A stretch of DNA of 64,000 nucleotides, taken from the NCBI GenBank assembly GCA_037974665.1, contig CM075780.1, positions 52,679,594 through 52,743,593 of the forward strand. The letters run 5' to 3'. Below, piece after piece: positions 1 to 45,789 of this stretch (positions are counted from its first letter, which is position 1; each line of letters begins with the position of its first letter). The notes beneath the pieces are model-generated. The model saw only the letters and a list, made by a program, of their open reading frames with translations. It was not told the origin of the DNA and ran no database searches. The position numbers and the translations under genes are program-made. Source of the stretch: Ehretia macrophylla. Taxonomy: Eukaryota > Streptophyta > Magnoliopsida > Boraginales > Ehretiaceae.

Positions 1-1824
1 ATAAACAAATCTATAAAATTGCATAGTTGCTGGAATCTTATGAAATGTATCAAAATAAACCCCTAAATCCACAAAACTCTCACTAAAGCTATGAAATCAT
101 ATACTAATCACATATAAACCAAATTCTCAACTTCTAATTAATAAAGTTAACACAAAATCACTTATTCCATCACCAATAAATTCATACGTATGTATTAAGC
201 TCTCACATTACTACTACAACATATAATCATCTATATAAGCACTTATAACACACTTATACATGATTTCTACGGATCAAAGTAAGCATACACTACAATACAT
301 TTGTATTTACAAATAATACATTCGACAATTGATATTTCACATTTGGGTAATAAAGTAGATCACCCAACCCATAGTAAACATTTACAACATGCTTGACAAG
401 GACTCTACAACACTCAATTAACGAACTAGGTAAGGCACTTCTAATTTATAATTCAGCAGAAGCGTAAATTAATCAAATTGTATGTCTATGTTAACAATCT
501 CTCAATACCCTGTTTTCTATCTAGCAACTAAGCTTATTGAATATAGATAGTTCTAGGTTCAAATGAAGCTCAATTTCGAGTTAAATTCATTGAGTTATAG
601 CCATTTTAGTGCAAGTACTACAAATTGTCCAGTTGCAATGTTTTTCTGGCACATCTCGGAAATAGAAAATTTGGAAGGTCTAAACGTTAGAATATGACTG
701 TTTGTAAAACACAAAGTTTGTTCCCAACTGCCTAATCTAGCTACGATAAAATTTTCGTTTGATTCCGAGGTCGTTTACTATTTTTAAAACATAAAAGAAG
801 TCAGAGGCAGTGAGCTGTCCAATAAATAATTGATAGCTTTCATGGCAAATTCACTTCCTATCTTGCTTCTATAACAGCACAAACCTCAAATACAAGCGCA
901 TAAACAAGATCACATAATACTACAACAATCTAGATCTACAAACCCTAGCATTTATCTTCAAAAATGCAAAATAAATACAAGATATAACAACAAGAACACA
1001 ACAAACCCAAAAGTCTACTCCTAACACATATATCTAGCATTATGAATCAAGATAACAACATTTCTTCAAACTAAATTTAATTTCAAGAATTTAAATCATG
1101 CAAGCACACAACCTCCCTCGCCTTAATTTAGCATATAAGGCTAGAAATGAAGATGAAATGGCAAGAAGAAACTTCTCTATGGATCAAACTTTGCTCAAAT
1201 CCACCAAGGAATGAAGAATCAACCTTGGAAATAGTTTTTCTTCTCTTTTCTCTTATGGCCGAATTTTGTAAGTGTTCTAGGTGTTGTGTGTGTTTTTGTC
1301 TTGCAAAATAATATTTGGTTGAAATAAATAGGCTAAGTCCAATGGTCAAATAACTAAATAAGCAAAGTCAAATAGCATTTGTTTGGTCAAACCCATGTAT
1401 ACAAAGCAGTTTTGACACCTTTTACTAAAATGATCATAACTTATGCTAGAGAACTCCAATTGGTAAACGGTTTGAAGTGTTAGAAACTAGACTCGTAGAG
1501 CTTTCCAACCATATATAATTTGTCACCTAAATATTCCCAATTAGTGCAGTGTGTATGTTTTGTTTTGCAAGAATGATGTTAGGTTGTTATATGCAAAGTC
1601 AACAAGTTAAAGATGACAACTTTGAATACTAAGGCTAAAATTACCTAGGAACCAAAGCTATTTCACATAATTACAAGTTTTCCATTGTAGCCAAAATAGT
1701 AGAAGTCAAAGTCAAAAGTCAACCCAAAATAAAATAAAGTCAAATACCACTTAAAATGCAAATAAAGACTTCTAATTAAATGATTAAAGCATTTAAATAT
1801 GCAATGCATGTTCGAGGTCTCACA
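1..1824 (-). mobile_element. Partial long LTR (family D), truncated by window edge
   Basis: On the minus strand this LTR begins at 1824 with TGTGAGACCTCG and runs leftward past the window start. It is inserted in a copia reverse transcriptase remnant that resumes at 1825. Bases 580-800 resemble 62240-62460 of the solo LTR at 59737-63395 (shared phrases such as GGAAGGTC and AACGTTAGAAT), which places it in the same broad LTR superfamily. The palindrome's outer left limit (695) is inside it. The far end is not in the window, so I cannot tell whether it is solo. The small ORF at 1128-1349 (minus) lies within the LTR, and I do not regard it as a gene. Confidence 0.7.
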
Positions 1825-2100
1825 CGAACTTGCGTTTGTCACATACTACAGTTATTATATCTGGCGAATGGATATTAAAGCTATGCTCCCAGATAGTTAT
1901 CAAGGAGAAGATGTCTATATGGAACGATTATAAGTTTTAAATCCAAGTATGATCGAGTATGTAAGCTTCACATACTTAGAGCATCTTATATAGTGATGAA
2001 ATAATAGAGATTGTTTTCATCAGATATGAAGATGAATCCTGTGTGTTTACAATGAGGTTAGTGGGAGCGTGTCCATTTACCATATATTGTATATTGATGA
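1825..2100 (+). pseudogene. Ty1/copia reverse transcriptase remnant, N-terminal part (left arm)
   Basis: A degenerate stretch that reads, across several frames, like the start of a plant copia RT. A YY-YIW-RMDIK-like segment near 1845-1885 corresponds to the family motif around the first catalytic Asp. A GEDVYME-like segment follows near 1905-1925, and near 2030-2100 there is an ESCVY-like segment followed by IYH-ILYIDD. The last codons are the catalytic YxDD motif, and a solo LTR is inserted exactly there (GATGA duplicated at 2096-2100 and 5467-5471). Stops and frameshifts make it non-functional. It continues at 5472. The mirror copy is 44387-44661. Confidence 0.75.
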
Positions 2101-2774
2101 TGTCACGCCCCAACCCGACCTATAGAGGCTAGACTGGGGTATGATCTAATCATTCTCGTTATTTTACGACCATAACCGATTAACGAAGGTTAAGCTTATC
2201 TGTTAGACTAGAACCTCAAACGTTTTTCAAAAAATCGGCAGCATGACGACTGTATTTAGGACCTTTGGTTTGACCTATTTTCTAAAACGCCTCAAAAACT
2301 TTCAATCATTGATTCGATTCCAGCTAACACCCCTACTTATAATCAACCGATATGCCTATTGATCTAACTCGGAAGTCTCATTTGATTAATAAGCCTAACG
2401 AGATAACTATGCTCCACTTATTTGTCAATTCCTATTACACAAGCACTTGTTATCCTTTAGCCTATGAATAGGTAGCTGGTTAAGACTAGATAGATTCATC
2501 TTATTTGATTCTTTACCTAATGCTTCATATGCCTATGATAGTTACTAATTCAAAATAGTGATAACAATCATCCAAATAAAGTGTCTGTCTAGTTATAATC
2601 AGTACAAGTCAAAATTAGACCCCAAATTATAACGGGGGTCTTTTACAATAACAACAAAGTAGTCTTCATAACAAACAACAACGTTCACAAAATAGCCACA
2701 GTCAAGCAAGGCACATAAGGCATGCAATCATTCCAAGGAATCATCAATAGGCACATTTTCCTCGGGTACTTGTT

Positions 2775-2850
2775 CCAGATCTTCTTCACTTGTGATGATG
2801 AAAGAGGGTGAGTCCTTATGAACTCAGCGAGGGAAAACGAGAAATAACGT
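2775..2850 (-). promoter_or_regulatory. Shared LTR block B (CTGAG / CTCACC / pyrimidine tract / CAGGT)
   Basis: Read on the minus strand it contains a CGCTGAGTTC half, a short loop, a GGACTCACC half, a pyrimidine-rich run and CAAG/CAGGT-like bases. The same order occurs in the other LTR families at 6840-6900, 12350-12440, 12990-13060, 33440-33515, 34050-34110, 39590-39650, 43655-43705 and 60325-60420. It resembles a 3' splice acceptor next to a small inverted repeat. The function is inferred. Confidence 0.5.
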
Positions 2851-3059
2851 TTTAAAACTCCTTTTCGGTTAATCTTATGAAAATCCCTTTTTGAAAACAT
2901 GTCACATAATACAAATAATAAAGTGCGCAAAGTATAAGAATCAAATTGAACAACAAATACAATTACCAATCATTTCAAGGATTCGGTGAGCTTTCGCTCT
3001 CGAGTTTATTTCCATTAACATTTGTTGCGGCCGACTTCAATCATCCACTTATTACTCCA

Positions 3060-3240
3060 AATGAGTATACTCCGGATTGTACACCAAACCTACGACCCAA
3101 CTCTCCGAGGGTGGAATGCCAAGCGAGAGAGGGAATTGGACCATGGTAATCACGGGAGCACCAGCAAGCCCTATGTCGCCCGGCGTTCGTGAATCGCTAC
3201 CATGCTACAATGAAAGGTTGCAATCTTGTACGCAATGCAC
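3060..3240 (-). repeat. Shared LTR block A (GGTTGCAACC block), copy in LTR A
   Basis: A roughly 180-bp block that stays recognisable across otherwise unrelated LTRs. Here it includes GTATACTCCGGATTGTACAC, an ACGACCCAACTCTCCGAGGG stretch, a GCAAGCCCTATGTCGCCCGG stretch and GGTTGCAATC. Other copies are at about 7100-7310, 13310-13480, 33000-33180, 39175-39390, 43255-43440 and 60610-60790. ORFs at 3077-3268 and 43219-43464 are readings of this block. It may be an RNA structure or enhancer; no protein reading is conserved between copies. Confidence 0.7.
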
Positions 3241-5215
3241 AATTATACCATTTAACAATTCACATTAGGAAGACAACAAAGTAGGTTGCCTCTGAGCAAT
3301 TACAAGATCACACATTGTCAAGTAAACACACGAGGCATGCTTTGACATGTACTTTCACTTTGTAGAACACTTAGAGGTATATGAACATTAAACGAGCAGC
3401 CAAGTAACACATATAAATCAAATCATATAACTCATTTCGGGTACATATATCAAGTGTTGAGGTCATACAAGCATGCAACGACACGTACACAAAACCAGGT
3501 GCAAGAATAGATCATTTATCAACAGGCAATCATCGAAAATCATGTTTAGGGCTATAAGGATAATTACGGGCAGCCTATTAACAATCCTCAACATCAATTC
3601 AATGTCACACAAGAATGGTTTATGACTTGGGAGTCTACGTGGCCATTAGGGTTTATAAGGCCCTGCTCAGGAGTCGGTTTTGTTTGCTAAACCACCACAA
3701 TTGACACTTAAACTATTTCAAGCATACTTAGCAATTATTGGACAGCCTACTAACCAATCAATTGAACACATTTAACCATAGGATCAACACTTAGCAAGTA
3801 TTCATAAGCAATAGGGCCTCAATTTCGTGCTACACGTGTGATTAAGCAACAATTCATCATGTAACTAAACCCAAGCCATGCATCAATCAATTAAGCATCC
3901 TCTACCAACCAAAACAGCCTACACAACTTCTAATTGCCACAATTCCAAGCATTCAATACCACAAGTAAAGTTTCAACATGATTCAAAGCATATTACCAAG
4001 CCAAAAATCCTACTGCAATGGTTTGTTTTTCCACATTCATTTAGCCAAGAAAATAACCTCCAAATTCAGTGAACCAAATGTCAAATTGAAGCTTAATGAG
4101 TACTTTAAATCTAGGAACAAACCTTGCTGCATTTAGAGTTCGGACTTAGGAGTTATGGCCAAAAACACTTCGTTCTACCAGGTCAATAATCTGCCAAAAA
4201 AATGAGTTTGCATATTTCTAAGTTTCTAGCCAAAATCAAGCCATGCATGAGTAGATAAGCTTATATACATACATATACAATAACTACAGAGGTAACTACA
4301 ACCATATGAGAGTATGCATGTGAGTTTTGAAAGCATTTAAAAGGTTTTAACCCTCACCTTAGCTTATTAATGGATGAAAATGCAAGGTTGCTTTTTGAAT
4401 CGCACAAAAGGTCCTCTTTCCCTGCTTTGGCTGAGTAGTGGCTTGACTTTCCTTAAATCCTAGCTTAGTTAGCTTGTGTAGGAGATGTGCATGTGTGTGA
4501 AATCAAAAGACAAGGAAGAAAACCATCAAAACTTACCTTAGGTCGAAAATGATGAGTTTTGTGAGCTTGTGGGAGATTTTCTTGCTTTGCTTGCTATGGT
4601 TGAACTTATTAGAATCCTTGAGAGCCTAGGTGAGTCTTAGAGATTAAAATTTCAGTCTTGGAAGCTCAAGGGAGCCATGGCCGAGAGAGTGAGAGAATGG
4701 GAGAGAATGAGAGAGAGTTTGAGAGAGAAATGGTGTTGAATTGTTTGTATAAGTGTGGCATGTATGTGTGTCGACCTTGGGCTTGCAAAATCTGAAATTT
4801 CTTTTGTCATTTGTGCATTTTGAATTGTGAGGACCATGCTTGGTGAGTAGGCCGAGAAAGGGTAGCTTGGGTAGGGTGCTTAGGAGTTTTTTATGCATTG
4901 TGTCTTGTGTTTGTGTCATAGAATGTCTAGGATAATTAATAAATTGTGCAAAGCTAGTCAAAATGCCTACACATGGTCGGCCAAGGCATGTAATTTGAGC
5001 ATTTTTGTGTTATTTTTTTATTGTATAATGTTGTATTATAGTATTAGTGTTATAGGTTTTTGTGTGCATGGGTTTTAGAATAAGAATAAAGAATAAAGAA
5101 TGTTTGAACATTAAAATATTGAGTTGAATTTGACATAGGATTAAAATAAGAGTTAGTGGTGTTTGTAGGATTATTTTATAGTCTAGTATTTTGTGTAGGA
5201 TTCTTTATTGATTAG

Positions 5216-5455
5216 CGTGCAGACACATTTTCCTATGTCTAGGGCATGCACTACGAGGTAAGGCACGAACTCTAAGACAAATGCACGAATTTCAAAGTAA
5301 ATGCACGCAACCCTAAATGAATGCACGTAAATCAATGCAAGACACTTAATTCAATGCAATGCACGTAATTTCAAGGTATGACTCTTGGACCTAGGTTAGG
5401 GCACGCAGTTCAAGGTTAAAGCACACGAATTGAGGTGACGCACGCAAATAGAGGC
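5216..5455 (-). repeat. Minisatellite at the start of LTR A
   Basis: About ten degenerate copies of a 22-24-bp unit around GCACG-AATTCAAGGTAAAT (sense strand: TTACGTGCATT...). It lies in the first 250 bases of the LTR in sense orientation. The same array is at about 41035-41265 in the right arm. Confidence 0.75.
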
Positions 5456-5471
5456 TGGGTCTCACAGATGA

Positions 5472-6420
5472 CATTTCAGACAATGGAAAAGATAAAGTGA
5501 CTTATTTGTTAGACTTGAGTCTAGTTGAGTAATATTCCATAAAACTTGGGACGAGCCTATTATATCTCAGAAATTTGTGTCTATAGGGATAGAGCGAAGG
5601 GATCAAATTAGGCTTATATCATAACGTGTACATTGAACGAATCTTGAAAAAATTCAAGATGAAGAATTCTAAGAATTGTTTGGTCTCCAGCCTCTGAGGT
5701 GGGGTATCCGTCTTTTCTTTTAAAATGTCTCCAATATTAGATGAAGTAAAAGGCAACGATGGGTTGTGTTCCTTATGCTTCAACCATAGTCAGTCTACTA
5801 TATGCTATGGGATGTACACAGTTTGATATAGATCCTGATGTAAAATGGTATGAGCAGATATCAGTCTGATCCAAGTGAATAACTAAGGATCTTATGGAAA
5901 TAATGAATTTCGTGGGGACGAATTCACTGATTCTATTGTATATATAGATAAAGAAAATAGAGAGTTAATATTTGGAATTGTCTTATATGTAATAAAGAAA
6001 TAGTAAGTTAGAAATAGTTCCGAACTACTAGTGATTGTTGACTTTATTGCCGAAGTCGAATACATTATAGCACTTAATGTTGCATTAATAGAAGTTTGAA
6101 TAGGAAAAGTTCTTCATAGAACTTAAGATGGTTTCAATCATTGAATCGTCATTAACGGTAACAATAAGGTTGATGCACCAATTAAAGGAACCTAGATCTC
6201 ATCGAAGATCCAAACACATGAAAAATGAGTTTTTCATATTATTTGAGAAATTATTACTCGAAAGAATATAAATCTTGCAGAAAGTTTCCTACATTGAAAA
6301 TATAGTTGACCCACAGATCCTGTAAGACCAGTCACAGTTAATCACCATCTTGGAGAAGATAAGTATATGATACGAGTGTATGATGCACTTATCCTATGAG
6401 AGATAACATTAGTGCAAGTG
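5472..6420 (+). pseudogene. Ty1/copia RT C-terminal part and RNase H remnant (left arm)
   Basis: Continues the copia reading after the solo LTR. Near 5625-5680 a YIERILKKFKMKNSK segment matches the plant copia RT thumb region. Near 5700-5880 there are traces of the GIPYASAIGS/MYAM region. Near 6050-6330 RNase H features appear: an AEY-ia-like segment, HQLKEPRSHRRSKHMKNEF-like residues and an LLLERINLAE-like segment. Many stops and frameshifts show it is dead. Next comes a GTGGGAGGT polypurine tract (about 6416-6426) and then the 3' LTR at 6427. The order RT, RNase H, PPT, LTR without integrase downstream is that of copia. The mirror copy is 40060-41013, on the minus strand. Confidence 0.8.
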
Positions 6421-6426
6421 GGAGGT

Positions 6427-6465
6427 TGTTAGAGATATGCCCTAATGCTATAGTTAGATGACCTA
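6427..6465 (+). mobile_element. Copia 3' LTR, first 39 bases (left arm)
   Basis: Starts TGTTAGAGATATGCCC directly after the polypurine tract AAGTGGGAGGT. The LTR is then interrupted by the family-B solo LTR and resumes at 9747. In the right arm (about 40020-40059) the first bases are mutated. Confidence 0.75.
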
Positions 6466-9400
6466 TGTAACGACCCCAACCCGACCCTTCTCAAGATTAG
6501 GTCAGAGTCTTCACTCACTGTCGTTGTGGTAACATGTACATAATTTGCTACCACATTAGGAGGAAGAATATATAGAGAACTTTTATTAACTAACTATTAC
6601 ACAATAGTTTAAGTCCAAAAGGGTGTTATATAAGTTACACCACTACCCGAGACACAAAAACTACCCTGCCGCTCTACAAATTAGGGTTTCAACAATAGCT
6701 ATCCCTCTCTACCCAAGGGTAATACAGGTAAACTTTAGCCTTTCAACTTGGATCATACAGTAGAACATGTTAGGCAAGAAACTTTGAGCACATAGTCAAC
6801 CAACATCGGCACATAATAACAACTTCTATTTCAAGCTAAATTGCACCTGCAAGGGGAGGGGGAAAAAGAGGGTGAGCTCTTTGAAAGCTTAGTGAGGATG
6901 GAATAGGAGAAGTTTTGAAAACATTTTTGGAGCTTTTGAAAACCATGATGCAATGCAATACAAGCGCGATAACATCAATTCACTGTTAATATACAATTAA
7001 TGATAAGAGACAATTATATATCACGTTGGAAATGATACATTTTAATATCACTTCAGTTGAGGTGACTAGCCTCAAATCACGATTTCAACTTTTTATCTCT
7101 CCCCAATAGGGTACTCCAGATTGTACCTGAAACCAATGACCCAACTCTCTGAAGGCGGTACTAGTCCCAAGCGAGAGAAAGCTCTCCAAGGGCGGTAGTG
7201 GTCCCAAGCAAGAGAGGGAATATGACCACGATAGTCACAAAAGCACCGACAAGCCCTATGCCACCTGGTGTTCGTGAATGCTATCGTGCCTGAGGTTGCA
7301 ACCCCTAATTCCAGTAGCACACAAGCATACACAAGTAACCACATAACACACGATTGATAATACTTTTGCAAATTTATGATAACGCAATTCGATAATCACA
7401 TAAGTAGGGAACAACAAAAGAGTTTGTCCCCGAACAAGTACCTTTAACAATTAGAAATATTTATACAAGTAGACAACAGAATGTAATCTATATCAACTCA
7501 TTGTTATCACTTAAACATTCAATAAATACTATCTCAATTGATAACCAATAGATAATCAATAACAAGAATAGATAACTTATACATATATACTATGAACCAG
7601 GTAAATTCCAGTCTCAATTAGTTAGGCCGATTATAATTAGATGTTCTTTGCTAAAATTACCTTATTACGGAAAACTAATCGTTTACTGGATCTTGAACTA
7701 ACATTCTAGCTAATTAAGCTATTTCATAGGGTTTCTTTCCTATTAATCTTAATTAAATATAAAACCTACTTAGCAAGAAATAACAATTTTATTTAGTTAC
7801 TCATTTTAAATTTCAGTCAACCTCTTAATCTTGCTAGTAATACTTACGGTTTATCTACCACATAAATGACCGAAAGCTGGTTTAGCAACTAATCCTATAT
7901 CTACGATAAGCTGTTTGTAAGAACACACAATAATAATAAACTAATTTATAATTATGTAATACAACTTAGAATAAAACTTACTTAGCGAAAAATAATGATA
8001 ATTTATTTAGTTCCTATTTTAAATTCCTATTCCACTTATTAGTAACCATTCTTTTAAATCCTATCTAAGTTCAACAGGTATATAGTAGTATCTACCTATA
8101 AAAGTCTACAAGATAGGTTAAAATTAAGCATAGTCTTATGATACAAAATATCATGCACAACTAGCTTATCTTATTTAGCAATCCTATGGGAACAGTAATC
8201 CTTTCGTAATATACCCTCACAAACCATTCATGCAAACCATGTCAGAAGCAAAACTATAAACACTTATACAGTAATGATGCTGCCTTTAAGTAAAATTTTC
8301 TCACCTTAATTATGTTGTTGCTGCTGTAAGCTTAATCGAAGTGTTTCTATGCTAATCGTATAAGTGTAGTGGTTCTTATATAGGGTCTTTGCCACAATGT
8401 AATTGGCTCATGTGATACTAGAATTGATTCAATGATAGAGATAGACTCATGATTAAATCTTTGGCTTGGTAATCATATGATAACATGTCAATGCTTACTT
8501 GCTCGATGGTGATTGCTTTAAGTGGGCAACTATATTCTTTAGCTAATACACTTGGCTTTGCTTTGACTATGCTACCTAACTACAAAACCAAAGCTAATTA
8601 AAATAAACACTTAAGTGGGCATGAAACAGGCTGCTGCGTAGCATGTTGCATGGTTTAGGCTTTAATAACTAATACATGTAGCTGATATTGGTAATAGACT
8701 TGGTGACGAGTGTACTAGGCAGTGAGGTGTTTGATATGGCAATAGTTTTGCTGAATCAGTGCAATGAGAATGTGATGTGTGGTATAGTAATTATTATGGT
8801 TAGGATATGTATGAGTAGTGTAATGATATCATAGGTTAATGATGAGCTTGAAAGATAAGGCTGCGTGATGTGATGTTGTTTCTTTAGCGACTATATTATT
8901 CGAAGCTCTGATGATTTAGGAATATTTGGGAGATAATATTATCTAGCAAAGTCAACAACTAATAAATCCTATTAAGAATCAATGAGTTATATTCTAAAAT
9001 GCTATATTTATCTTTCATTCTAGTGGAAAGTATTTCTAATTTTATTAGTAAGCAGGTAGTAACAGACCTAATAAACCCTAGTATTCCTAAAAATTTCATT
9101 TGTACTTATTAAACTAATTTTCCTTCTTTTAGGATTGTCATATAGTTATCACTTGGTCACTAGATCATTTTTCCCAGTAAACTTCTATATCCAGCTAAGA
9201 CAATTAATTAATAGAACAAACCAAGTAGATCATATATTAACATAGTTCTTTAACTAAGGTAAAGGTTTTCAGTAACAACCCTAAGTATATTTCTAAGTGT
9301 TAGTATTAAAGGGAATGACTTGATATATTATCCTTTTACTTTATAAGCCAGAACAATATTTTCTTATAATTCTACATGCTTAAATTGATTAACCTAGTTT

Positions 9401-9741
9401 CATTATCTATAACTTCATATTGTCCGTATGTACTTTGAAAATTATTATAAGCTATATTATTTCCCATAAATTCCCATATTGTAACTAAGATAATTAATCA
9501 ATAGGTTATTTAATTCAAATGACAAATAAAGTACGAACATTAATATTTCTAACTTTTTAACGTTCAAACTATCCAAATGCATCTAACAAGTTATTATTTC
9601 CTCCTTAATTGAAACGAATGCCTAGTTTGATATGTTTTCTAATTTTAATTTAATTCCTAATATAGGAAATACGAACACCAACCACATTAATAATACCTAA
9701 ATAATATACTAATGCTCGGGATTTGAGTACCAGTCCTTACA
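6466..9741 (-). mobile_element. Solo LTR, family B (left arm), TSD ACCTA
   Basis: A 3,276-bp LTR, plus-strand start TGTAACGACC and end CCAGTCCTTACA, with a perfect 5-bp duplication ACCTA (6461-6465, 9742-9746). It is inserted 39 bases into a copia LTR. On the minus strand it starts TGTAAGGAC and ends GGTCGTTACA. It carries block B at 6840-6900 and block A at 7100-7310, where block A has a short internal duplication (GAGAGAAAGCTCTCCAAGGGCGG). No coding domains were seen; the ORFs at 7093-7450 are readings of block A. The right-arm copy (36748-40019) has one base of each duplication changed. Confidence 0.93.
7100..7310 (-). repeat. Shared LTR block A, copy in LTR B
   Basis: Contains GGTACTCCAGATTGTACC, GACCCAACTCTC, GAGAGGGAAT, CGACAAGCCCTATGCCACC and GAGGTTGCAACC. 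The motif order is the same as in the other copies, although the surrounding LTR differs. Confidence 0.7.
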
Positions 9742-9746
9742 ACCTA

Positions 9747-15618: not shown

Positions 15619-15630
15619 TTCTCCCCACTT
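15619..15630 (-). other. Polypurine tract of the non-autonomous element (left arm)
   Basis: AAGTGGGGAGAA on the minus strand, immediately before the 3' LTR. The right-arm copy is AAGGGGGGAGAA at 30862-30873. Confidence 0.8.
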
Positions 15631-16432: not shown

Positions 16433-16434
16433 CC

Positions 16435-34489: not shown

Positions 34490-36747
34490 AATCCTCTTTA
34501 CCTAAATTGGTCAATGCAACAGTAGCATCTCTAATGATAATTCATGCTTGGTTATCATGATCTAAGACCATGTACATGTCTTTCCTCGTGAATCCAATGA
34601 AGGAAAACACAACATATAGTTGTAGGATCGTCAAAGAAAACATGCAAATCACAAAACCCTTATGGCCGAAACTAGAAGCATGGCATTTCAAAAATTTCTA
34701 CTCCATAACCTTTGTATTCATATGTGATCTTCAAGTAATGTCCATAAAAACTAACATGCATTTCAATATATATAAACTATATATATAAAGACAAAGGTAT
34801 AGGTGCAGTTATACCTCTTGTGGATAGCCAACAACTTGTGGAATGCCTTTGATGATGCAACTAGCTCTTCCTCAAGTGTGAAGGATCTAGGCAGAAACAC
34901 CGAACATCCAAGAACAATCTACGCTCAAAGACTAAATGTGCTAGCTTGTCTTTAGTGATATTAGCTTATATGTGTGTTAAAAGATAAAATAAACACTCAT
35001 TTCTTTTTCTTTTGCTTGGGCCGAGAACAAGAAGTAAGAAAATATGTCAAAAACTTTCTAACTCTTGTTCATCTTCAAGCTCAATGCCGTGAGTGTATGT
35101 GTGTGTTAGTGAAGATCATAATCTTCTCTTGCTTTGTGTGTGTAGCCGTGTAGGAGAGAGGAGAGAAAACTTAGCTTAATCTCTATCATTGATCTTGTCT
35201 TTAGCTTGAGTGTTTGAGTGTCCAAAAGGTTTTCTTTCTCCTAATCCACATGCATTAGCTATCATTACAAAAGCAAGCCATACAAAGGCTATACTTTTCA
35301 AGATTAAATCTTGGCCATCTATTTTAAATTAGTGGGATGTGACATCATCAGTAGATGATTTGGATTGATGACTTGGCAAATCCTAGCCATGCAATCCAAT
35401 CTTCCACATATGCTTACATGTATATGCCACATGTACATATATGTCAACTAATTTGTGTAATTAATTAATTAATTCTAATCTCTATTAGAATAATTAATTC
35501 AAAATACTTTTTAATAATTACACAATGGCCCCAAAACTTTTGGTAATTACTCAAACACTCAATACTCTCAACAATCACATCAACACGGCCCAACACTATT
35601 ACTAATTACATAATCAGCCCAATACTTCCAATAATTACATAATTGGCCCATTAACTTTTAATGACCAAAAGGAATGACGTTAACTTTTTAATATCCTTTC
35701 TAAATTACATATAAGCTCATCGATTATTCTATTAATGATATTGTTAAGTGTGTAATATTCTAGATTCATAACCGTATAGCGATGAGGGATTATTAAACGC
35801 TTTTAATCTATTCCGGAGAATGTCTTCGTCATTCTCCGACATACTCTCACGTTCAAGAGTGACACCTAGCAACATACGTGTCAAGACAGTTTATACGGTA
35901 AATGAAGTCCCACTTATATGAATCCATTTATAGTCACGAATTAGTGTGCAGTCCGATCCTTTCAATAAAATGTCCCGATCATTGTGGGGACCATGATGCG
36001 ATTAAGTCCACTAAACCGATTTTATGCTTAGATCTGAATGGTGCAACGAGAGATGACACTATGGAAAAACCCCTTTCCATCATTCACTCACGCATTGGCC
36101 AAGGACTTCCTCGTTCACCAGTCGTAATAAGATCGCATAGGACGTCTCCTCACGTTGGAGGTTAACGGATCCTATCTTGACAATTACCTTTCAGTCTTTA
36201 TATCACATGACTAAACTGCGAGAGGTCGTATCCTAACTTTATGAAGGCGGGCTTTGTCCAAACACTATAGTTAGCCCCTGATATATCCGGTAGTTATAAT
36301 TTATCACGTCAAAGGATTAATTTGCACAATCTGCAACAGATAACAAACTATTAATCTGAAGTCATGTAGTTTATTACCTACATCATATTCAATGATTTAT
36401 TCTACTAATGATCACTCCTATGTAAGTTAATCGCATCTCCATGTTGTTATAGCACAAGGCTCGCCATCCTTTATTATTAATATCCCTATGTTAATCAAAG
36501 GTAACTAAATATAATAGCCCGTACTCTATTATTCTAGTCCTGATTAAATAATCTAAGGGCTACAAATTAGTTCTAGTGTTTATCATATCAAAGAAATATG
36601 CCGACGTATTCTAAACGCTTTTAGAATATATTTCTCCTCTGAAGAAACACTAAGGACTCAATCATATATTATAGACGGAGAATATGAATGTCCACTGAAT
36701 GCCATTATGAAATATACACATACATATCAAAATATCCCTATATAGGT
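34490..36747 (-). mobile_element. Copia 3' LTR and flank (right arm)
   Basis: Mirror of 9747-11999, interrupted at 36748 by the family-B solo LTR. The minus-strand copia LTR resumes at 40020. No coding domain. The plus ORFs at 34570-34788 and 35902-36165 mirror those of the left arm. Confidence 0.55.
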
Positions 36748-39700
36748 TGTAAGGACCGGTACTCAAATCCCGAGCATTAGTATATTATTTAGGTATTATT
36801 AATGTGGTTGGTGTTCGTATTTCCTATATTAGGAATTAAATTAAAATTAGAGAACATATCAAACTAAGCATTCGTTTCAATTAAGGAAGAAAGAATAACT
36901 TGTTAGATGCATTTGGATAGTTTGAATGTTAAAAAGTTAGAAATATTAAAGTTCGTACTTTATTTGTCATTTGAATTAAATAACCTATTGATTAATTATC
37001 TTAGTTACAATATGGGAATTTTTGGGAAATAATATAGCTTATAATAATTTTCAAAGTACATATGGACAATATGAAGTTATAGATAATGAAACTAGGTTAA
37101 TCAATTTAAGCATGTAGAATTATAAGAAAATATTGTTATGGCTTATAAAGTAAAAGGATAATATATCAAGTCATTCCCTTTAATACTAACACTTAGAAAT
37201 ATACTTAGGGTTGTTACTGAAAACCTTTACCTTAGTTAAATAACTAAGTTAATATATGATCTACTTGGTTTGTTCTATTAATTAATTGTCTTAGCTGGAT
37301 ATAAAAGTTTACTGGGAAAAATGATCTAGTGACCAAGTGATAACTATATGACAATCCTAAAAGAAGGAAAATTAGTTTAATAAGTACGAATGAAATTTTT
37401 AGGAATACTAGGGTTTATTAGGTTTGTTACTACCTGCTTACTAATAAAATTAGAAATACTTTCCACTAGAATGAAAGATAAATATAGCATTTTAGAATAT
37501 AACTCATTGATTCTTAATAGGATTTATTAGTTGTTGACTTTGCTAGATATTATTATCTCCCACATATTCCTAAATCATCAGAGCTTCGAATAATATAGTC
37601 GCTAAAGAAACAACATCACATCACGCGGCCTTATCTTTCAAGCTCATCATTAACCTATGATATCATTACACTACTCATACATATCCTAACCACAATAATT
37701 TCTATACCACACATCGCATTCTCATTGCACTGATTCAACAAAACTATTGCCATATCAAACACCTCATTGCCTAGTACACTCGTCACCAAGTCTATTACCA
37801 ATATCAACTACACGTATTAGTTATTAAAGCCTAAACCATGCAACATGCTACGCAGTAGCCTGTTTCACGCCCACTTTAGTGTTTATTTTAATTAGCTTTG
37901 GTTTTGTAGTCGAGTAGTATAGTCAAAGCAAAGCCAAGTGTATTAGCTAAAGAATATAGTTGCCCACTTAAAGCAATCACTATCGAGCAAGTAAGCATTG
38001 ACATGTTATCATATGATTACCAAGCCAAGGATTTAATCATGAGTCTATCTCTATCACTGAATCAATTCTAGTATCACATGAGCCAATTACATCGTGGCAA
38101 AGACCCTATATAAGAACCACTACACTTATACGATTAGCATAGAAACACTTTGATTAAGCTTACAGCAGCAACAACATAATTAAGGTGAGAAAATTTTACT
38201 TAAAGGTAGCATCATTACTGTATAAGTGTTTATAGTTTTGCTCTTGACATGGTTTGCATGAATGGTTTGTGAGGGTATATTACGAAAGGATTATTGTTCC
38301 CATAGGATTGCTAAATAAGATAAACTAGTTGTGCATGATATTTTGTATCATAAGACTATGCTTAATTTTAACCCATCTTGTAGACTTTTATAGGTAGATA
38401 CTATATATACCTGTTGAACTTAGATAGGATTTAAAAGAATGGTTACTAATAAGTGGAATAGGAATTTAAAATAGGAACTAAATAAATTATCATTATTTTC
38501 CGCTAAGTAAGTTTTATTCTAAGTTGTATTACATAATTATAAATTAGTTTATTATTATTGTGTGTTCTTACAAACAGCTTATCGTAGATATAGGATTAGT
38601 TGTTAAACCAGCTTTCAGTCCTTTATGTGGTCGATAAATCGTAAGTATTACTAGCAAGATTAACAGGTTGACTGAAATTTAAAATGAGTAACTAAATAAA
38701 ATTGTTATTTCCTGCTAAGTAGGTTTTATATTTAATTAAGATTAAAAGGAAATAAACCCTATGAAATAGCTTAATTAGCTAGAATGTTAGTTCAAGATCC
38801 AGTAACTGATTAGTTTTCTGTAATAAGGTAATTTTAGCAAAGAACATCTAATTATAATCGACCTAACTAATTGAGACTGGAATTTACCTGGTTCATAGTA
38901 TATATGTATAAGTTATCTATTCTTGTTATTGATTATCTATTGGTTATCAATTGAGATAATATTTATTGAATGTTTAAGTGATAACAATGAGTTGATATAG
39001 ATTACATTCTGTTGTCTACTTGTATAAATATTTCTAATTGTTAAAGGTACTTGTTCGGGGACAAACTCTTTTGTTGTTTCCTACTTATGTGTTTATCAAA
39101 TTGCGTTATCATAAATTGCAAAAGTGTTATCTATTGTGTGTTACGTGATTACTTGTGCATGTTTGTGGGCTATTGGAATTGGGGGTTGCAACCTCAAGCA
39201 CGATAGCATTCACGAACGCCGAGCGGCATAGGGCTTGTTGGTGCTCCCGTGACTATTGTGGTCCTATTCCTTCTCTCGCTTTGGACTACTACCGCCCTTG
39301 GAGAGCTTTTTCTTGCTTGGGACCAGTACCGCTCTCGGAGAATTGGGTCGTAGGTTTCGGGTACAATTCGAAGTACCCCATTGGGGAGAGATAAGAAGTT
39401 GAAATCGTGATTCAAGGCCGGCCACCTCTGGAAGTAATATCGAAATGTATCATTTGCAACGTGATATATAATTGTCTCTTATCGTTAATTGTATATTAAC
39501 AGTGAATTGATGTTATCGCGCTTGTATTGCATTGCATCATGGTTTTCAAAAGCTCCAAAAATGTTTTCAAAACTTCTCCTATTCCATCCTCACTAAGCTT
39601 TCAAAGAGCTCACCCTCTTTTTCCCCCTCCCCTTGCAGGTGCAATTTAGCTTGAAATAGAAGTTGTTATTATGTGCCGATGTTGGTTGACTATGTGCTCA

Positions 39701-40019
39701 AAGTTTCTTGCCTAACATGTTCTACTGTATGATCCAAGTTGAAAGGCTAAAGTTTACCTGCATTACTCTTGGGTAGAGAGGGATAGTTATTGTTGAAACC
39801 CTAATTTATAGAGCGGCAGGGTAGTTTTTGTGTCTCGGGTAGTGGTGTAACTTATATAACACCCTTTCGGACTTAAACTATTGTGTAATAGTTAGTTAGT
39901 AAAAGTTCTCTATATATTCTTCCTCCTAATGTTGTAGCAAATTATGTACATGTTACCGCAACGACAGTGAGTGAAGACTCTGACCTAATCTTGAGAAGGG
40001 TCGGGTTGGGGTCGTTACA
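36748..40019 (+). mobile_element. Solo LTR, family B (right arm)
   Basis: 3,272 bp, TGTAAGGACCGG to GGGTCGTTACA. Flanks TAGGT and TAAGT are the complements of the left-arm duplication with one substitution. Block A lies at 39175-39390 and block B at 39590-39650 (CCTCACTAAGCTTTC, GCTCACCC, CCCCTTGCAGGTG). Confidence 0.92.
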
Positions 40020-40059
40020 TAAGTCATCTAACTATAGCATTAGGGTATATCTCTAAGAA
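40020..40059 (-). mobile_element. Copia 3' LTR start (right arm)
   Basis: Mirror of 6427-6465. The polypurine tract CAAGTGGGAG is present on the minus strand, but the terminal TGTT has mutated. Confidence 0.65.
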
Positions 40060-41018
40060 TCTCCCACTTGCACTAATGCTATCTCTCATAGGATAAGTGC
40101 ATCATACACTAGTATCATATACTTATCTTATCCAAGATGGTGATTACCTGTGACTGGTCTTACAGGATCTGTAGGTCAACTACGTTTTCAATGTAGGAAA
40201 CTTTCTGCAAGATTTATATCTTTCGAGTAATAATTTCTCAAATAATATGAAAAACTCATTTTTCATGTGTTTGGATCTTTGATGAGATCTAGGTTCCTTT
40301 AATTGGTGCATCAACCTCATTGTTACCGTTAACGACGATTCAATGATTGAAACCATCTTAAGTTCTATGAAGAACTTTTCCTATTCAAACTTCTATTAAT
40401 GCAACATTAAGTGCTGCAATGTATTCGACTTCGACAATAAAGTCAACAATCACTGGTAGTTCGAAACTATTTCTAACTTACTATTTCTTTATTACATATA
40501 AGACAATTCCAAATATTAGCTCTCTATTTTTATGATCTATATATACAATAGAATCAGTGAATTCGTCCCCACGAAATTCATTATTTCCATAAGATCCTTA
40601 GTTATTCACTTGGATCAGACTGATATCTGCTCATACCATTTTACATCAGGATCTATATCAGACTGTGTACATCCCATAGCATATAGGAGACTGACTATGG
40701 TTGAAGCATAAGGAACACGACCCATCGTTGCCTTTTACTTCATCTAATATTGGAGACATTTTAAAAGAAAAGACGGATACCCCACCTCAGAGGCTGGAGA
40801 CCAAACAATTCTTAGAATTCTTCATCTTGAATTTTTTCAAGATTCGTTCAATGTACACGTTATGATATAAGCCTAATTTGATCCCTTCGCTCTATCCCTA
40901 TAGACACAAATTTCTGAGATATAATAGGCTCGTCCCAAGTTTTATGGAATATTACTCAACTAGACTCAAGTCTACACAAATAAGTCACTTTATCTTTTCC
41001 ATTGTCTGAAATGTCATC
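40060..41018 (-). pseudogene. Ty1/copia RT C-terminal and RNase H remnant (right arm)
   Basis: Mirror of 5472-6420. The same RT thumb (about 40815-40865) and RNase H traces (about 40190-40440) are visible on the minus strand, with several new substitutions and stops. Non-functional. Confidence 0.75.
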
Positions 41019-44000
41019 TGTGAGGCCTGACCTCAATTTACGTGCTTTACCTTGATTTGTGTACCCTAACCTTGAACTGCGTGCCTTAACCTAGGTCCAA
41101 GAGCCATACCTTGAAATTACGTGCATTGTATTGAATTACGTGCCTTGCATTGATTTATGTGCATTCATTTAGGGTTACGTGCATTTACTTTGGAATTCGT
41201 GCATTTGTCTTGAAGTTCGTGTATTACCTAATAGTGCGTGCCCTAGACCTCGGAAAATGTGTTTGCACGCTAATCAATAAAGAATCCTACACAAAGCACT
41301 AGACTATAAATAATCCTACAAACACCACTAACTATTATTATAATCCTAAGTCAAATTCAACTCAATATTTTAATGTTCAAACATTCTTTATTCTTTATTC
41401 TTATTCTAAAACCCATGCACACAAAAACCTATAACACTAATACTATAATACAACATTATACAATAAAAAAAATAACACAAAAATGCTCAAATTACATGCC
41501 TTGGCCGACCATGTGTAGGCATTTTGACTAGCTTTGCACAATTTATTAATTATCCTAGACATTCTATAACACAAACACAAGACACAATGCATAAAAAAAC
41601 TCCTAAGCACCCTACCCAAGCTACCCTTTCTCGGCCTACTCACCAAGCATGCTCCTCACAATTCAAAATGCACAAATGACAAAAGAAATTTCAGATTTTG
41701 CAAGCCCAAGGTCGACACACATACATGCCACACTCATATAAACAATTCAACATCATTTCTCTCTCAAACTCTCTCTCATTCTCTCCCATTCTCTCACTCT
41801 CTCGGCCATGTCTCCCTTGAGCTTCCAAGACTGAAATTTTAATCTCTAAGACTCACCTAGGCTCTCAAGGATTCTAAGAAGTTCGACCATAGCAAGCAAA
41901 GCAAGAAAATCTCGCACAAGCTCACAAAACTTATCATTTTCGGCCTAAGGTAAGTTTTGATGGTTTTCTTCCTTTTCTTTTGGTTTCATACACATGTATA
42001 TCTCCTACACAAGTTAACTAAGCTAGGATTTAAGGATAGTCAAGCCACCACTCGGCCAAAGCAAGGAAAGAGGACTTTTTGTGTGATTCAAAGAGCAACC
42101 TTGCATTTTCATCCATTAATAGGCTAAGGTGAGGGTTAAAACCTTTTAAATGCTTTCAAAACTCACATGCATACTTTCATATGGCTGTATTTACCTTTGT
42201 AGTTCTTGTATATGTGTGTATATGAGCCTATCTACTCATGCATGGCTTGATTTTGGCTAGAAACTTAAAAATATGCAAACTCATTTTTTTGGCAGATTAT
42301 TGACCTGGTAGAACGAAGTATTTTTGGCCATAACTCCTAAGTCCGAACTCCAAATGTAGCGAGGTTTGTTCCTAGATTTAAAGCACTCATTAAGCTTCAA
42401 TTTGACATTTGGTTCACTGAATTTGGAGGTTATTTTCTTGGCTAAATGGATGTGAAAAAATAGACCATTGCAGTAGGATTTTTGGCTTGGTAATATACTT
42501 TGAATCATATTGAAACTTTACTTGTGATATTGAATGCATGGAAATTGTGGCAATTAGAAGTTGTGTAGGCTGTTTTGGTTGGTAGATGATGCTTAATTTA
42601 TTGATGCATGGCTTGGGTTTAGTTACATGATGAATTGTTGCTTAATCGCATGTGTAGCACGAAATTGAGGCCCTACTGCTTATGAATACTTGCTAAGCGT
42701 TGATCCTATGGTTAAATGTGTTCAATTCATTGGTTAGTAGGCTGTCCAATAATTGCTAAATATGCTTGAAATAGGTTAAGTGTCACTTGTGGTGGTTTAG
42801 CAAACAAAACCAACTCCTGAGCAGGGCCTTGTAAACCCTAATGGCCCCGTAGACTCCCAAGTCATAAACCGTTCTTGTGTGACATTGAATTGATGTTGAG
42901 GATTGTTAATAGGCTGCCCGTAATTGTCCTTATAGCCCTAAACATGATTGTCGATGATTGCCTGTTGATAAATGATCTATTCTTGCACCCGGTTTTGTGT
43001 AAGTATCGTTGCATGCTTGTATGACCTCAACACTTGATATATGTACCCGAAATGAGTTATATGATTTGATTTATATGTGTTACTTGGCTGCCCGTTTAAT
43101 GTTCATATACCTCTAAGTGTTCTACAAAGTGAAAGTAAATGTCAAAGCATGCCTCGTGTGTTTACTTAATAATGTGTGATCTTGTAATTGCTCAGAGGCA
43201 ACCTACTTTGTTGTCTTCCTAATGTGAATTGTTAAATGGTATAATTGTGTATTGCATACAAGATTGCAACCTTTCATTGTGGCATGGTAGCGTTTCACGA
43301 ACGCCGAGCGGCATAGGGCTTGCCGGTGCTCTCGTGATTACCATGGTCCAATTCCCTCTCTCGCTTGGTATTCCACCCTCGGAGAGTTGGGTCGTAGGTT
43401 TGGTGTACATCCGGAGTATACCCATTTGGAGTGATAAGTGGATGATTGAAGTTGGCCGCAACAAATGTTAATGGAAATGAACTCGGGAGCGAAAGCTCAC
43501 CGTATCCTTGAAATGATTGGTAATTGTATTTGTTGTTCAATTTGATTCTTATACTTTGAGCAATTTATTATTTGTATTATGTGACATGTTTTCAAAAAGG
43601 GGTTTTCATAAGATTAACCGGAAAAGAGTTTTAAAATGTTATTTCTTGTTACCCCTCGCTGAGTTCATAAGGACTCCTCCTCTTTTATCATCACAGGTGA
43701 AGAAGATTTGGAACATGTACCCGAGGAGAATGTGCCTGTTGATGATTCCTTGGAATGATTGCATGTCTTATGTGCCTTGCTTGACTGTGGCTGTTTTGTG
43801 AACGTTGTTGTTTGTTATGAAGACTACTATGTTGCTATTGTAAAAGACCCCCGTTGTAATTTGGGGTCTAATTTTAACTTGTACTAATTATAACTAGACG
43901 GACACTTTATTAGGATGATTGCTATCACTATTTTGAATTAGTAACTATCATAGGCATATGAAGCATTAGATAAAGAATCAAATAAGATGAATCTATCTAG

Positions 44001-44386
44001 TCTTAACCAGGTACCCATTCATAGGCTAAAAGATAACAGGTGCTTGTGTAATAGGAATTGACAAATAAGCGGAACATAGTTATCTCGTGAGGCTTATTAA
44101 TCAAATGAGACTTCCGAGTTAGATCAATAGACATATCGGTTGATTATAAGTAGGAGTGTTAGTTGGAATCGAATCAATGATTGAAAGTTTTTTTAGGCGT
44201 TTTAGAAAATAGGTTAAACCAAAGGTCCTAAATACAGCCGTCATGCTGTCGATTTTTCGAAAAACGTTTGGGGTTCTAGTCTAACGGATAAGCTTAACCT
44301 TCGTTAATCGGTTATGGTCGTAAAATAACGAGAATGATTAGATCACACCCCAATCTAGCCTCTATAGGTTAGGTTGGGGCGTGACA
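41019..44386 (+). mobile_element. Solo LTR, family A (right arm), TSD TCATC
   Basis: 3,368 bp, TGTGAGGCCTGACC to GGGGCGTGACA, with perfect duplications TCATC at 41014-41018 and 44387-44391 (the complement of GATGA). A minisatellite lies at 41035-41265, block A at 43255-43440 and block B at 43655-43705. ORFs 43219-43801 are LTR readings. Confidence 0.93.
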
Positions 44387-44661
44387 TCATCAATATACAA
44401 TATATGGTAAATGGACACACTCCCACTAACCTCATTGTAAACATAAGGATTCATCTTCATATCTGATGAAAACAATCTCTAATATTTCATCACTATATAA
44501 GATGCTCTAAGTATGTGAAGCTTACATACTCGATCATACTTGGATTTAAAACTCATAATCGTTCCATATAGACATCTTCTCCTTGATAACTATCTGGGAA
44601 CATAGCTTTAATATCCATTCGCCAGATATAATAACTGTAGTATGTGACAAACGCAAGTTCG
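44387..44661 (-). pseudogene. Ty1/copia RT remnant, N-terminal part (right arm)
   Basis: Mirror of 1825-2100. The YxDD codons abut the solo LTR, and the DIK-like motif lies near 44605. Interrupted by stops. Confidence 0.72.
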
Positions 44662-45789
44662 TGTGAGACCTCGAACATGCATTATATTTAAATGCTTCAA
44701 TCATTCAATTAGAAGTCTTTATTTGCATTTTAAGTGGTATTTGACTTTATTTTATTTTGGGTTGACTTTTGACTTTGACTTCTACTATTTTGGCTAGAAT
44801 GTCAAACTTGTAATTATGTGAAATAGCTTTGGTTCCTAGGTAATTTTAGCCTTAGTATTCAAAGTTGTCATCTTTAACTTGTTGACTTTGCATATAACAA
44901 CCTAACATCATTCTTGCAAGATAAAATGTATTCACTGCATTATTTGGGAAGAGTTAGGTGGCAAATTATATATGGTTAGAAAGCTCTACGAGTCTAGTTT
45001 CTAACGCTTCAAACCGTTCGCGAATTGGAGTTCTCTAGCATAAGTTATGATCGTTTTAGTAAAAGGTGTCAAAGTTGTTTTGTATACACGGGTTTGACCA
45101 AACAAATGTTATTTGACTTTGCTTACTTAGTTATTTAACCATTGGACTTAGCCTATTTATTTCAGCCAAACATTATTTTGCAAGACAAAAACACACACAA
45201 CACCTAGAACACCTACAAAATTCTGTCATAAGAGAAAAGAGAAGAAAAACTATTTCCAAGCTTGATTCTTCATTCTTTGGTGGATTTGAGCAAAGTTTGA
45301 TCCATGGAGAAGTTTCTTCTTGCCATTTCATCTTCATTTCTAGCCTTAGATGCTACATTAAGGTGAGGGAGGTTGTGTGCTTGCATGATTTAAATTCTAA
45401 AAATTAAATTTAGTTTGAAGAAATGTTGTTATCTTGATTCATAAGTCTAGATATATGTACTAGGAGTAGACTTTTGGGTTTGTTGTGTTCTTGTTGTTAT
45501 ATCTTGTATTTATTTTGCATTTTTGAAGATAAATGCTAAGGTTTGTAGATCTAGGTTGTTGTAGTATTATGTGATCTTGTTTATGCGCTTGTATTTGAGG
45601 TTTTTGAAGCTATAGAAGCAAGATAGGAAGTGAATTTGCCATGAAAGCTATCAATTATTTATTGGACAGCTCACTGCCTCTTACTTCTTTTATGTTTTAA
45701 AAATAGTAAACGACCTCGGAATCAAACGAAAATTTTATCGTAGCTAGATTAGGCAATTGGGAACAAACTTTGTGTTTTACAAACAGTCA
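44662..45789 (+). mobile_element. Truncated LTR, family D (right arm)
   Basis: Starts TGTGAGACCTCGAAC at 44662. Similarity to the left arm stops at 45789, within CAAACAGTCA, long before an LTR end. It includes an AGTTTCTAACGCTTCAAACC stretch and an AAGGTGAGGGAGG motif (45358-45372). Confidence 0.75.

Follow-up and report, generated by a model that had tools for sequence, protein, structure and literature searches.

A carboxylesterase gene array with reversed units underlies a large palindrome in Ehretia macrophylla

The DNA analysed here (the window, 64,000 nucleotides of Ehretia macrophylla beginning at C17:52,679,594 in a genome of 1.58 Gb) belongs to a cluster of carboxylesterase (CXE) genes. 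Self-comparison of the window with 110 kb on each side (264 kb, then 284 kb, with zero N) resolved eight units, of which five are long (40-48 kb), two are short (12-13 kb) and one has no measured length; U0 and U7 are only partly visible. U2 and U4 are reversed and the other six units (U0, U1, U3, U5, U6 and U7) are forward, so that a multi-kilobase unit is present in several direct copies, U6 being one at 95-96%. Head-to-tail boundaries, at which an H end is followed by a T start, join U0|U1, U5|U6 and U6|U7 and lie at -105k, 94.3k and 170.5k (negative positions precede the window). U0 and U5 represent a short form in which the same 32 kb is missing, and their common junction (82,970|82,976) suggests that this form may be older, the 32 kb having been added later, or may be the product of a deletion. 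Copies of the core discussed below at C17:52,553,436-52,558,732 (91-93%) indicate that the array extends further left; past position 174,000, reading was confined to the CXE at 52.877 Mb.

The U6 gene copy matches Abhydrolase_3 (PF07859) with 164.8 bits against a curated cut-off of 25. The nearest solved relatives of the CXE proteins are 2-hydroxyisoflavanone dehydratase (8ea1, the best at E 1.4e-68), CorS and tabersonine synthase. HMM matches on C17 fall at 52.563, 52.658/52.659, 52.749/52.752, 52.775, 52.852 and 52.877 Mb. Two frameshifts are common to U2, U3, U4 and U5, neither occurring in U0 or U7; U2 carries a third, and U1 gave no CXE match. Hence, among the palindromic units, CXE copies are either broken or absent and no intact frame was found. 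Damage also extends outside the palindromes: U0 has two in-frame stops (its ownership of this CXE is assumed, ~5 kb between the gene and -110,000 being unread), U7 has one, and U6 lacks the N-terminal part. The CXE at C17:52,876,685 presents a 316-aa frame from Met.

Within the window, a forward and a reversed unit meet. U3 (plus strand) occupies 1..22581, the whole unit spanning about -21,018..22,581 by self-comparison, and U4 (minus strand) occupies 23067..64000 of a unit at 23,067..71,317, of which U2 lacks ~3.6 kb (59,738-63,393). The initial annotation had described a palindrome of ~45 kb, and its mirror symmetry is confirmed, and chance excluded, by a single BLAST alignment of 695-21448 with 45789-25023 (20,789 columns, 96.1% identity, 755 mismatches and 32 gaps, of which 31 span ≤5 bp and the remaining one 12 bp). 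The aligned arms are the H-proximal halves of U3 (695..21448, plus strand), which is 98.2% identical in direct orientation to U1, and of U4 (25023..45789, minus strand), for which U2-U4 divergence is p=0.016 over 34.5 kb. An innermost segment at 21446..21764 (plus strand) pairs with 23066..23384 (minus strand) at 95.6% over 320 columns. As had been proposed, the arms have diverged by substitutions; at 3.5% apart (1.2 to 11% per 500 bp), they reject a mirrored single read as their source. Of 548 transitions between the arms, 136 touch CpG.

The inverted repeat itself was correctly recognized, but not its arm length of ~21 kb nor its outer end at 695/45789. Pairing resumes outwards in inverted blocks at -3110..-445 versus 48522..45852 (95.2%), -8502..-3120 versus 53958..48586 (94.4%), -13627..-8501 versus 59737..54606 (98.1%) and -21080..-14552 versus 70248..63684 (97.1%), making the arms about twice as long as supposed. 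The window palindrome is thus U3 (forward) plus U4 (reversed), with arms of about 43-48 kb. Nor is it a stand-alone object: next door, U1 and U2 repeat the U3-U4 pair at 98.2% identity and an offset of 87.6 kb, with the same central junction. This duplication appears in the self-comparison as direct alignments of 53.6 kb (98.2%) and 18.6 kb (98.1%) at that offset, spanning the palindrome centre, alongside inverted alignments centred near -65k, -21k, 22.5k and 71k.

The interruptions of arm pairing have histories of their own. The apparent outer palindrome end is made by about 1.1 kb (-444..694, of which 1..694, plus strand, lies in the window) that is kept in U1, U3 and U6 and absent from U2 and U4. 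The indel between the arms, put at 1,641 bp originally, is present with an actual size of 1,638 bp (23385..25022, minus strand); 25023-25171 pairs with 21300-21448 at its edge. This 1.64-kb segment is kept in U2, U4 and U6 and absent from U1 and U3, and 23849-45789 aligns with U6 168851-146886 at 96.4%. Because U6 also carries the segment, we read the difference as a loss from the lineage of U1 and U3 and dropped the idea of a young right-arm insertion.

Nested LTRs and a unique core (17590-21404) had also been described, and neither description held. The LTRs are interleaved (A-B-A-B) and form one pair of 1,155 bp within an element at 12000..17589 (strand unassigned), the right LTR at 16435-17589 and the left (12000-12486 and 14970-15618) interrupted by ~2.5 kb. 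Its outer flanks, GGATT and AGATT, are alike at four of five bases and could be a target-site duplication. LTR-LTR identity is 90.6% and 94.1% against 96.1% arm-to-arm, and matching segments occur in U1, U2, U4 and U6; the element thus predates the duplication of the long units. The core query (17590-21448) gave at least 51 genome matches, with 40 of 267 candidates scored; among the matches listed, five are full-length on C17, including itself, and partial ones at 73-94% lie on C17, C1, C2, C3, C4, C7, C9 and C16. No Pfam match above the curated cut-off was obtained in 10 of the window's 13 stop-to-stop frames of ≥100 aa, the three omitted frames lying in the right arm, and within this limited Pfam scan no gene was found at the window centre.

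What the centre does contain is a 485-bp element at 22582..23066 (plus strand), with terminal inverted repeats of about GTGTGTTTGGATTG, classed by eye as MITE-like. The breakpoint with U4 coincides with the 3' end of this element, and U4 homology restarts at 23067. Copies stand at both palindrome centres on C17, and with 40 of 1,145 candidates scored at least 38 further sites, all on other chromosomes, match at 83-89%; the element belongs to a dispersed family. Immediately to its left, 22427..22581 (plus strand) corresponds to the first ~155 bp of a related 870-bp insert located at the forward boundary U6|U7; it is absent at U0|U1 and U5|U6, where the join resembles an empty site with an 8-bp overlap. 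MITE-related sequence borders U4 on both sides, forward at H2 and reversed at T2 (70,620-71,317). Consequently, a plain cut followed by a flip would have to include duplication at a staggered break, unless the unit was re-inserted instead. Two copies of the H junction exist, each of which has changed on its own, and they agree at 98.6% over 3.9 kb. Against the instability expected of such a structure, the junction has survived ~1.7% divergence of its two copies, and the centre holds ~1.3 kb of unpaired sequence that includes the element.

Pairwise divergence among U1, U2, U3, U4 and U6 ranges from p 0.016 to 0.040, U1-U2 standing at 0.035 as against 0.017 for U1-U3. Quartet sites group (U1,U3)(U2,U4) at 683 of 763 positions, (U1,U2)(U3,U4) at 71 and (U1,U4)(U2,U3) at nine. 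The longest exact matches are 486 bp for U3/U4, 878 bp for U1/U3 and 1,681 bp for U2/U4. The palindrome arms therefore diverged independently, and gene conversion between them was minor, with 71 conversion-like sites, 29 of them within 5,640-6,010.

U3 is a hybrid, being U5-like leftward and U1-like rightward of a switch at about -13.3 kb, as unequal crossing-over predicts. Left of -13,465 it is 97.3% identical to U5 over 7.6 kb, while to U1 it reaches 90.3% over 2.4 kb and 96.0% over 0.35 kb, the remainder being unaligned; right of the switch it is 98.2% identical to U1. Across 3.6 kb common to U1, U3 and U5, U3 agrees with U5 at 13 sites and with U1 at seven in the first 400 bp, and the other eight bins sum to 68 sites for U1 and 14 for U5. 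Two of those eight bins show no U1-likeness (-11,864, none for U1 and two for U5; -10,664, nine for each) and count against the model, as does the first kilobase on the T side, where U2/U3 (99.4%) are closer than U3/U5 (98.9%). The latter might reflect local conversion spanning the centre of T0, the seam at which U2 and U3 meet.

Taken together, the observed unit order, orientations and identities, the hybrid U3 and the common junction lead us to consider it highly probable that the locus is a local segmental-duplication array of a CXE-bearing block, in which reversal and then unequal crossing-over produced the palindromes. The mechanism and timing of the inversion we infer as follows. The starting order would have been head-to-tail, each block with one CXE gene, and one long unit would then have been turned round, either inverted where it lay or re-inserted backwards, its junction falling at the end of the MITE-like element. 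A forward unit, a reversed unit and a forward unit in succession yield a palindrome at each border between the two orientations. Unequal crossing-over between the forward units on either side of the reversed one would have duplicated the 87.6-kb pair, giving U1 U2' U3 U4' U5 (primes marking reversal) with U3 as the hybrid and the window as U3 plus U4'. On this reading, the arms are alike because they are neighbours in an array. For the plant, the structure is probably in the main a by-product of an unstable cluster; one side effect, the pair of tail-to-tail CXE pseudogenes at -21 kb, may have a function.

How the unit came to be reversed allows a further reading, which we regard as possible if doubtful, namely that a rearrangement at transposon ends, such as reversed-ends transposition of the MITE family, and not an accident of break repair was responsible. 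Reversed-ends transposition is known from maize Ac/Ds. The U3|U4 junction sits on the 3' end of an element of a dispersed family and related sequence also borders T2; however, the T2 breakpoint (71,317/71,323) does not coincide with the end of an element, MITEs depend on a helper transposase in trans, and the junction has no clear target-site duplication. A palindrome folded back in one step was considered and rejected, since the outer T seams and the forward boundaries show an array.

That haplotypes or repeat copies were joined head to head during assembly is improbable. The array is read from assembled sequence, an arm difference of 3.5% is within the range of a highly heterozygous plant, and the 87.6-kb copies are only 1.6-1.7% apart, so that two haplotypes could conceivably have been placed in tandem by mistake. 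Nevertheless, the five distinct copies (U1, U2, U3, U4 and U6) exceed what two haplotypes can supply, the 284 kb contains no N, and the longest exact matches are far shorter than long reads. Even if U1-U2 and U3-U4 were two haplotypes, the H junction present in both pairs, with its independent changes, would make the palindrome real, and a haplotype mis-join as the sole cause is refuted. We give still less credence, and indeed very little, to a selected ampliconic palindrome whose arms are homogenised by gene conversion in the manner of the mammalian Y or willow W. The layout does recall the willow W, described as two consecutive palindromes with four arms, 20-kb conserved stretches and a 3.6-kb spacer (PMC7023750), and some conversion-like patches exist. 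Set against this, arm identity is 96%, the arms were kept separate at most informative sites, and the CXE copies of all four palindromic units are broken or absent. A palindrome of sex-chromosome type was rejected, since the arms are not closer to each other than to the same arm of the duplicate (683 versus 71 sites).

The initial annotation had also suggested that transcription through the window palindrome could yield double-stranded and small RNAs. A better place for this idea would be T0, outside the window at -21.05 kb, where two CXE pseudogenes lie tail-to-tail (-22,218..-21,086 and -21,018..-19,886, inverted, 98.9% identical) around a 67-bp loop. They were joined by a 1.56-kb deletion whose sequence is still present at T2. 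Inverted paralogues with a short loop are thus found here, and T0 has the anatomy of hairpin silencing loci. Between T0 and the intact frame at C17:52,876,685, a possible target, 63 21-mers are shared, in runs of up to about 60 nt; a relative at C13:20,649,579 shares 15 (run about 27), and one 10-kb control sequence shares none. It is tempting to speculate that T0 is a natural hairpin gene, a dominant silencer of the Lgc1/OGI type acting on the remaining CXE genes, although we judge this unlikely. The deletion would have come after the palindrome duplication and would have stripped away MITE-related sequence, the 3' flank of each CXE gene and, in the U2 copy, the final ~20 codons. Transcription from the promoter of either CXE would then proceed directly into the antisense twin. 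Such a read-through transcript would form dsRNA of >1.1 kb with a 67-nt loop, and its siRNAs would silence the CXE at C17:52.877 Mb and that of U6. If true, an esterase/dehydratase-type trait of specialised metabolism would be altered by a silencer born from segmental duplication of a pseudogene.

A seemingly exotic 45-kb palindrome thereby becomes a readable history of tandem units, reversal at a MITE-like element, a locatable crossover and limited arm conversion, and illustrates clearly, in a plant, how palindromes arise when units of a gene cluster are reversed. Small deletions at palindrome seams may in turn provide ready-made hairpin genes. The question of whether such seams regularly give rise to new silencing loci (compare soybean I, Lgc1, OGI and the poplar Y repeats) can now be put to the test on a 2.3-kb interval. 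A literature search of mostly freely readable papers, not aimed at carboxylesterase, returned neither a CXE hairpin locus nor the present array.

Among known systems, T0 (-21,086/-21,018) has the shape of rice Low glutelin content 1 (Lgc1; Kusaba et al. 2003), in which a deletion between two tail-to-tail paralogues is reported to remove what lies behind the genes, so that read-through would yield a hairpin; the T0 genes differ in being pseudogenes. PAI1-PAI4 are likewise counted among hairpin RNA silencing loci. At the soybean I locus, CHS1-3-4 inverted repeats are described within segmental duplications (PMC6710647), and that account shares with ours tandem and inverted copies of metabolic genes in low-copy repeats and unequal recombination over ~100 kb, seen there as 138-kb deletions and here as the 87.6-kb duplication. 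The soybean arms are given as two identical 10.91-kb repeats with measured siRNAs (PMC6710647), whereas those described here are ~45 kb long, 96% alike and carry broken genes. Willow (Salix purpurea) W.P1/W.P2 resemble the present locus as two consecutive palindromes with four arms, reported with a first spacer of 3,586 bp in a region of about 200 kb; the same report (PMC7023750) describes gene conversion, expressed genes and a sex-determining region, in contrast to the minor conversion here. Persimmon OGI (PMC7048303) and the response-regulator repeats of the poplar Y, which are incomplete fragments (PMC7465354), are inverted paralogue copies that arose by duplication and are reported or proposed to give small RNAs against the intact gene. 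Both act in sex determination (PMC7048303, PMC7465354), whereas the targets of a hairpin at T0 would be CXE genes.

The ~45-kb palindrome first noted at 695..45789 is real: 695-21448 aligns with the reverse complement of 25023-45789 at 96.1% identity over 20,789 columns, with 755 mismatches (548 transitions and 207 transversions) and 32 gaps, 31 of ≤5 bp and one of 12 bp. The arms extend inwards (21446-21764 pairs with 23066-23384 at 95.6%), and the ~21 kb first ascribed to them understated their size. They measure 43-48 kb, with some interrupting indels, and correspond to two whole units, U3 and U4, of a carboxylesterase (CXE) cluster. Divergence between the arms (mean 3.6%) peaks at 7-11% per 500 bp at 5001-5500, 7001-7500, 10001-10500 and 13001-14000. 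The interleaved LTRs at 12000-17589 form a single element (LTRs of 1,155 bp, interior ~0.8 kb), its left LTR being interrupted by a ~2.5-kb insert. An Rfam snoR71 match lies in the U4 arm (51007-51110; 47.3 bits, gathering 40), and the U3 arm has its counterpart (-5,674..-5,569; 45.4 bits). Unit and feature positions are numbered from the start of the window, negative ones lying to its left.

The supposedly unique core of the initial annotation did not survive a search of the 1.58-Gb genome (20 contigs), where 17590-21448 has at least 51 matches, a lower bound with 40 of 267 candidates scored. Among the matches listed, five full-length copies all lie on C17, the contig carrying the window (itself at 52,679,594-52,743,593), at 52,609,643 (+), 52,617,068 (-), the core itself, 52,704,616 (-) and 52,843,393 (+), and partial copies lie on C17 and seven other contigs. 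The segment 17590-20205 is a dispersed repeat within the long unit; among the matches listed it recurs whole or in pieces at 86-94%, clustered on C7 (26.7-32.8 Mb) and C16 (67.4-67.9 Mb) and with a single occurrence on C1. Because the core occurs repeatedly on C17, self-comparison was extended to 100 kb on each side of the window and then a further 10 kb per side.

This comparison places the window within an array of units, each with the CXE-bearing T end first and the H end last. Forward units are U0 (read in part; H end -105.8k..-105.06k), U1 (-105k..-65k), U3 (-21.0k..22.58k), U5 (71.3k..94.3k), U6 (94.3k..170.5k) and U7 (from 170.5k; 3.5 kb read only); U2 (-64.5k..-21.09k) and U4 (23.07k..71.3k) are reversed. 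Forward units meet at -105k, 94.3k and 170.5k, and the palindromes are the seams with reversed units, at ~-65k (H1), -21.05k (T0), 22.6k-23.07k (H2, the window's palindrome centre) and 71k (T2). With later inserts excluded, U1-U4 and U6 span 40-48 kb, U5 ~13 kb and U0 ~12 kb. U0 and U5 lack the same ~32.5-kb block (U6 136,256-168,759) at one common junction (82,970|82,976 in U5; at ~-106,570 U0 aligns straight across, 93.9%), and therefore a short unit form exists, which could reflect either an inherited deletion or gain of the block by the long units' ancestor. The window palindrome is ordinary in kind, a reversed unit within a segmental-duplication cluster.

The inserts carry features of their own, with coding classes assigned by eye. 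In U5 (insert ~83.6-93.4k), a long Ty3/gypsy polyprotein-like frame (84,154-89,449) is flanked by 467-bp terminal repeats (83,629-84,095 and 92,951-93,416). The ~30 kb inserted in U6 (95,978-126,501) holds a tandem satellite (108,670-114,766; ~334-bp period, ~18 copies; related copies at 100,421-101,989) and a long CACTA (TNP2-type) transposase-like frame (117,714-121,401).

Head-to-head mis-joining of two haplotypes at H2 is very unlikely, because 284 kb of assembly contain no N, five unit copies are mutually distinct, the H junction is present twice (98.6% over 3.9 kb) and U3 and U4 nowhere match exactly over more than 486 bp. A residual probability remains that the 87.6-kb pair of units was falsely doubled in the assembly, its two copies being two haplotypes.

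Over ~34-35 kb, the closest pairs are U1-U3 (pairwise difference p=0.0172) and U2-U4 (0.0161), forward and reversed units differing by 0.0347-0.0368 and these four from U6 by 0.0330-0.0397. Reversal therefore came first and pair duplication later. An upper substitution rate of 1.3e-8 per site and year was taken. The lower, 2.5e-9, is the one that PMC7023750 quotes for Populus tremula. By p/2r, a rough guide with rates from outside this species that may not be its own, the forward/reversed split falls ~1.3-7 million years ago and the pair duplication ~0.7-3.4 million years ago. Comparison with U6 polarises two differences as losses, of 23385-25022 in U1/U3 and of -444..694 in U2/U4.

Ancestrally, U1 and U5 would have flanked a single reversed unit, and an unequal crossover between them would have produced U1 U2' U3 U4' U5 (primes marking reversal), with U3 part U5 and part U1. 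Left of -13,465, U3 matches U5 at 97.3% over 7.6 kb, versus 90.3% (2.4 kb) and 96.0% (0.35 kb) to U1 with the remainder unaligned; to the right, it matches U1 at 98.2% over 54.7 kb. Across 3.6 kb common to all three, U3 agrees with U5 at 13 sites and U1 at 7 in the first 400 bp, and with U1 at 68 and U5 at 14 in the remaining eight bins, two of which are not U1-like (0 vs 2; 9 vs 9). Unequal crossing-over, with a switch in U3 near -13.3 kb, is well supported by these alignments.

Informative sites among U1-U4 group (U1,U3)(U2,U4) in 683 of 763 cases, arms of the same palindrome in 71 and the remaining pairing in 9. These 71 sites fall in clusters, with 29 of them at 5,640-6,010 and 18 at -6,200..-5,850. 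U6 agrees with U3/U4 at 29/29 of the former, which therefore mark a diverged patch common to U1 and U2; at the latter it agrees with U3/U4 in 15/18 and U1/U2 in 3/18. Arm-to-arm exchange seems to occur in short patches, and the palindrome is not maintained by it.

The reversed unit could have arisen by an in-place flip with staggered breaks or by re-insertion as an inverted copy. At H2, a MITE-like element of 485 bp (22,582-23,066) stands between the end of U3 (22,581) and the start of U4 (23,067). The element occurs at the two palindrome centres on C17 and in at least 38 places on other chromosomes (83-89%; 40 of 1,145 first-look candidates scored). At T2, related sequence lies within reversed U4 (70,620-71,317), and U5, from 71,323, lacks ~1.07 kb of the T start. 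The U6|U7 boundary has an 870-bp related insert; U0|U1 and U5|U6 wholly lack one and join with an 8-bp overlap, resembling empty sites. Involvement of a transposon end is plausible at H2, not at T2.

Of 82 PF07859 profile matches genome-wide, those near the array lie on C17 at 52.563, 52.658 and 52.659 (a pair), 52.749, 52.752, 52.775, 52.852 and 52.877 Mb. The U6 copy, whose best solved relatives are 2-hydroxyisoflavanone dehydratase, CorS, tabersonine synthase and catharanthine synthase, lacks its N-terminal part. U2-U5 share two frameshifts, U2 has a third, and U0 and U7 carry two and one in-frame stops; neither array self-comparison nor the profile search found a CXE match in U1. The 52.877-Mb gene has a 316-aa open frame from Met (82% at the DNA level).

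The most valuable lead is the T0 seam, 21 kb left of the window, a tail-to-tail CXE pseudogene pair (-22,218..-19,886) in a palindrome with 6.5-kb arms (97.0%). Compared with T2, T0 lacks ~1.56 kb (70,187-71,743 at T2), including MITE-related sequence and sequence 3' of both CXE genes. The U2 copy lacks its last ~20 codons; the retained end of the U3 copy forms the 67-bp loop between CXE arms of 1.13 kb (98.9% identity). The predicted fold of a 1,201-nt piece has an energy of -1035 kcal/mol; a single control piece of similar length gives -291.5. Of the 21-mers in the hairpin arms, 63 also occur in the 52.877-Mb CXE, 15 in a relative on C13, 396-642 in U6/U7/U0 and none in one 10-kb control. 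T0 is a candidate natural hairpin gene, and its function is no more than a lead, as most array CXE copies are themselves broken.

The anatomy of T0 is that of Lgc1. The seam also resembles the soybean I locus (PMC6710647), persimmon OGI (PMC7048303) and poplar Y repeats (PMC7465354). The palindromes described here are nearest in layout to those of the willow W (PMC7023750), and the array is nearest in its way of making to the soybean I locus.
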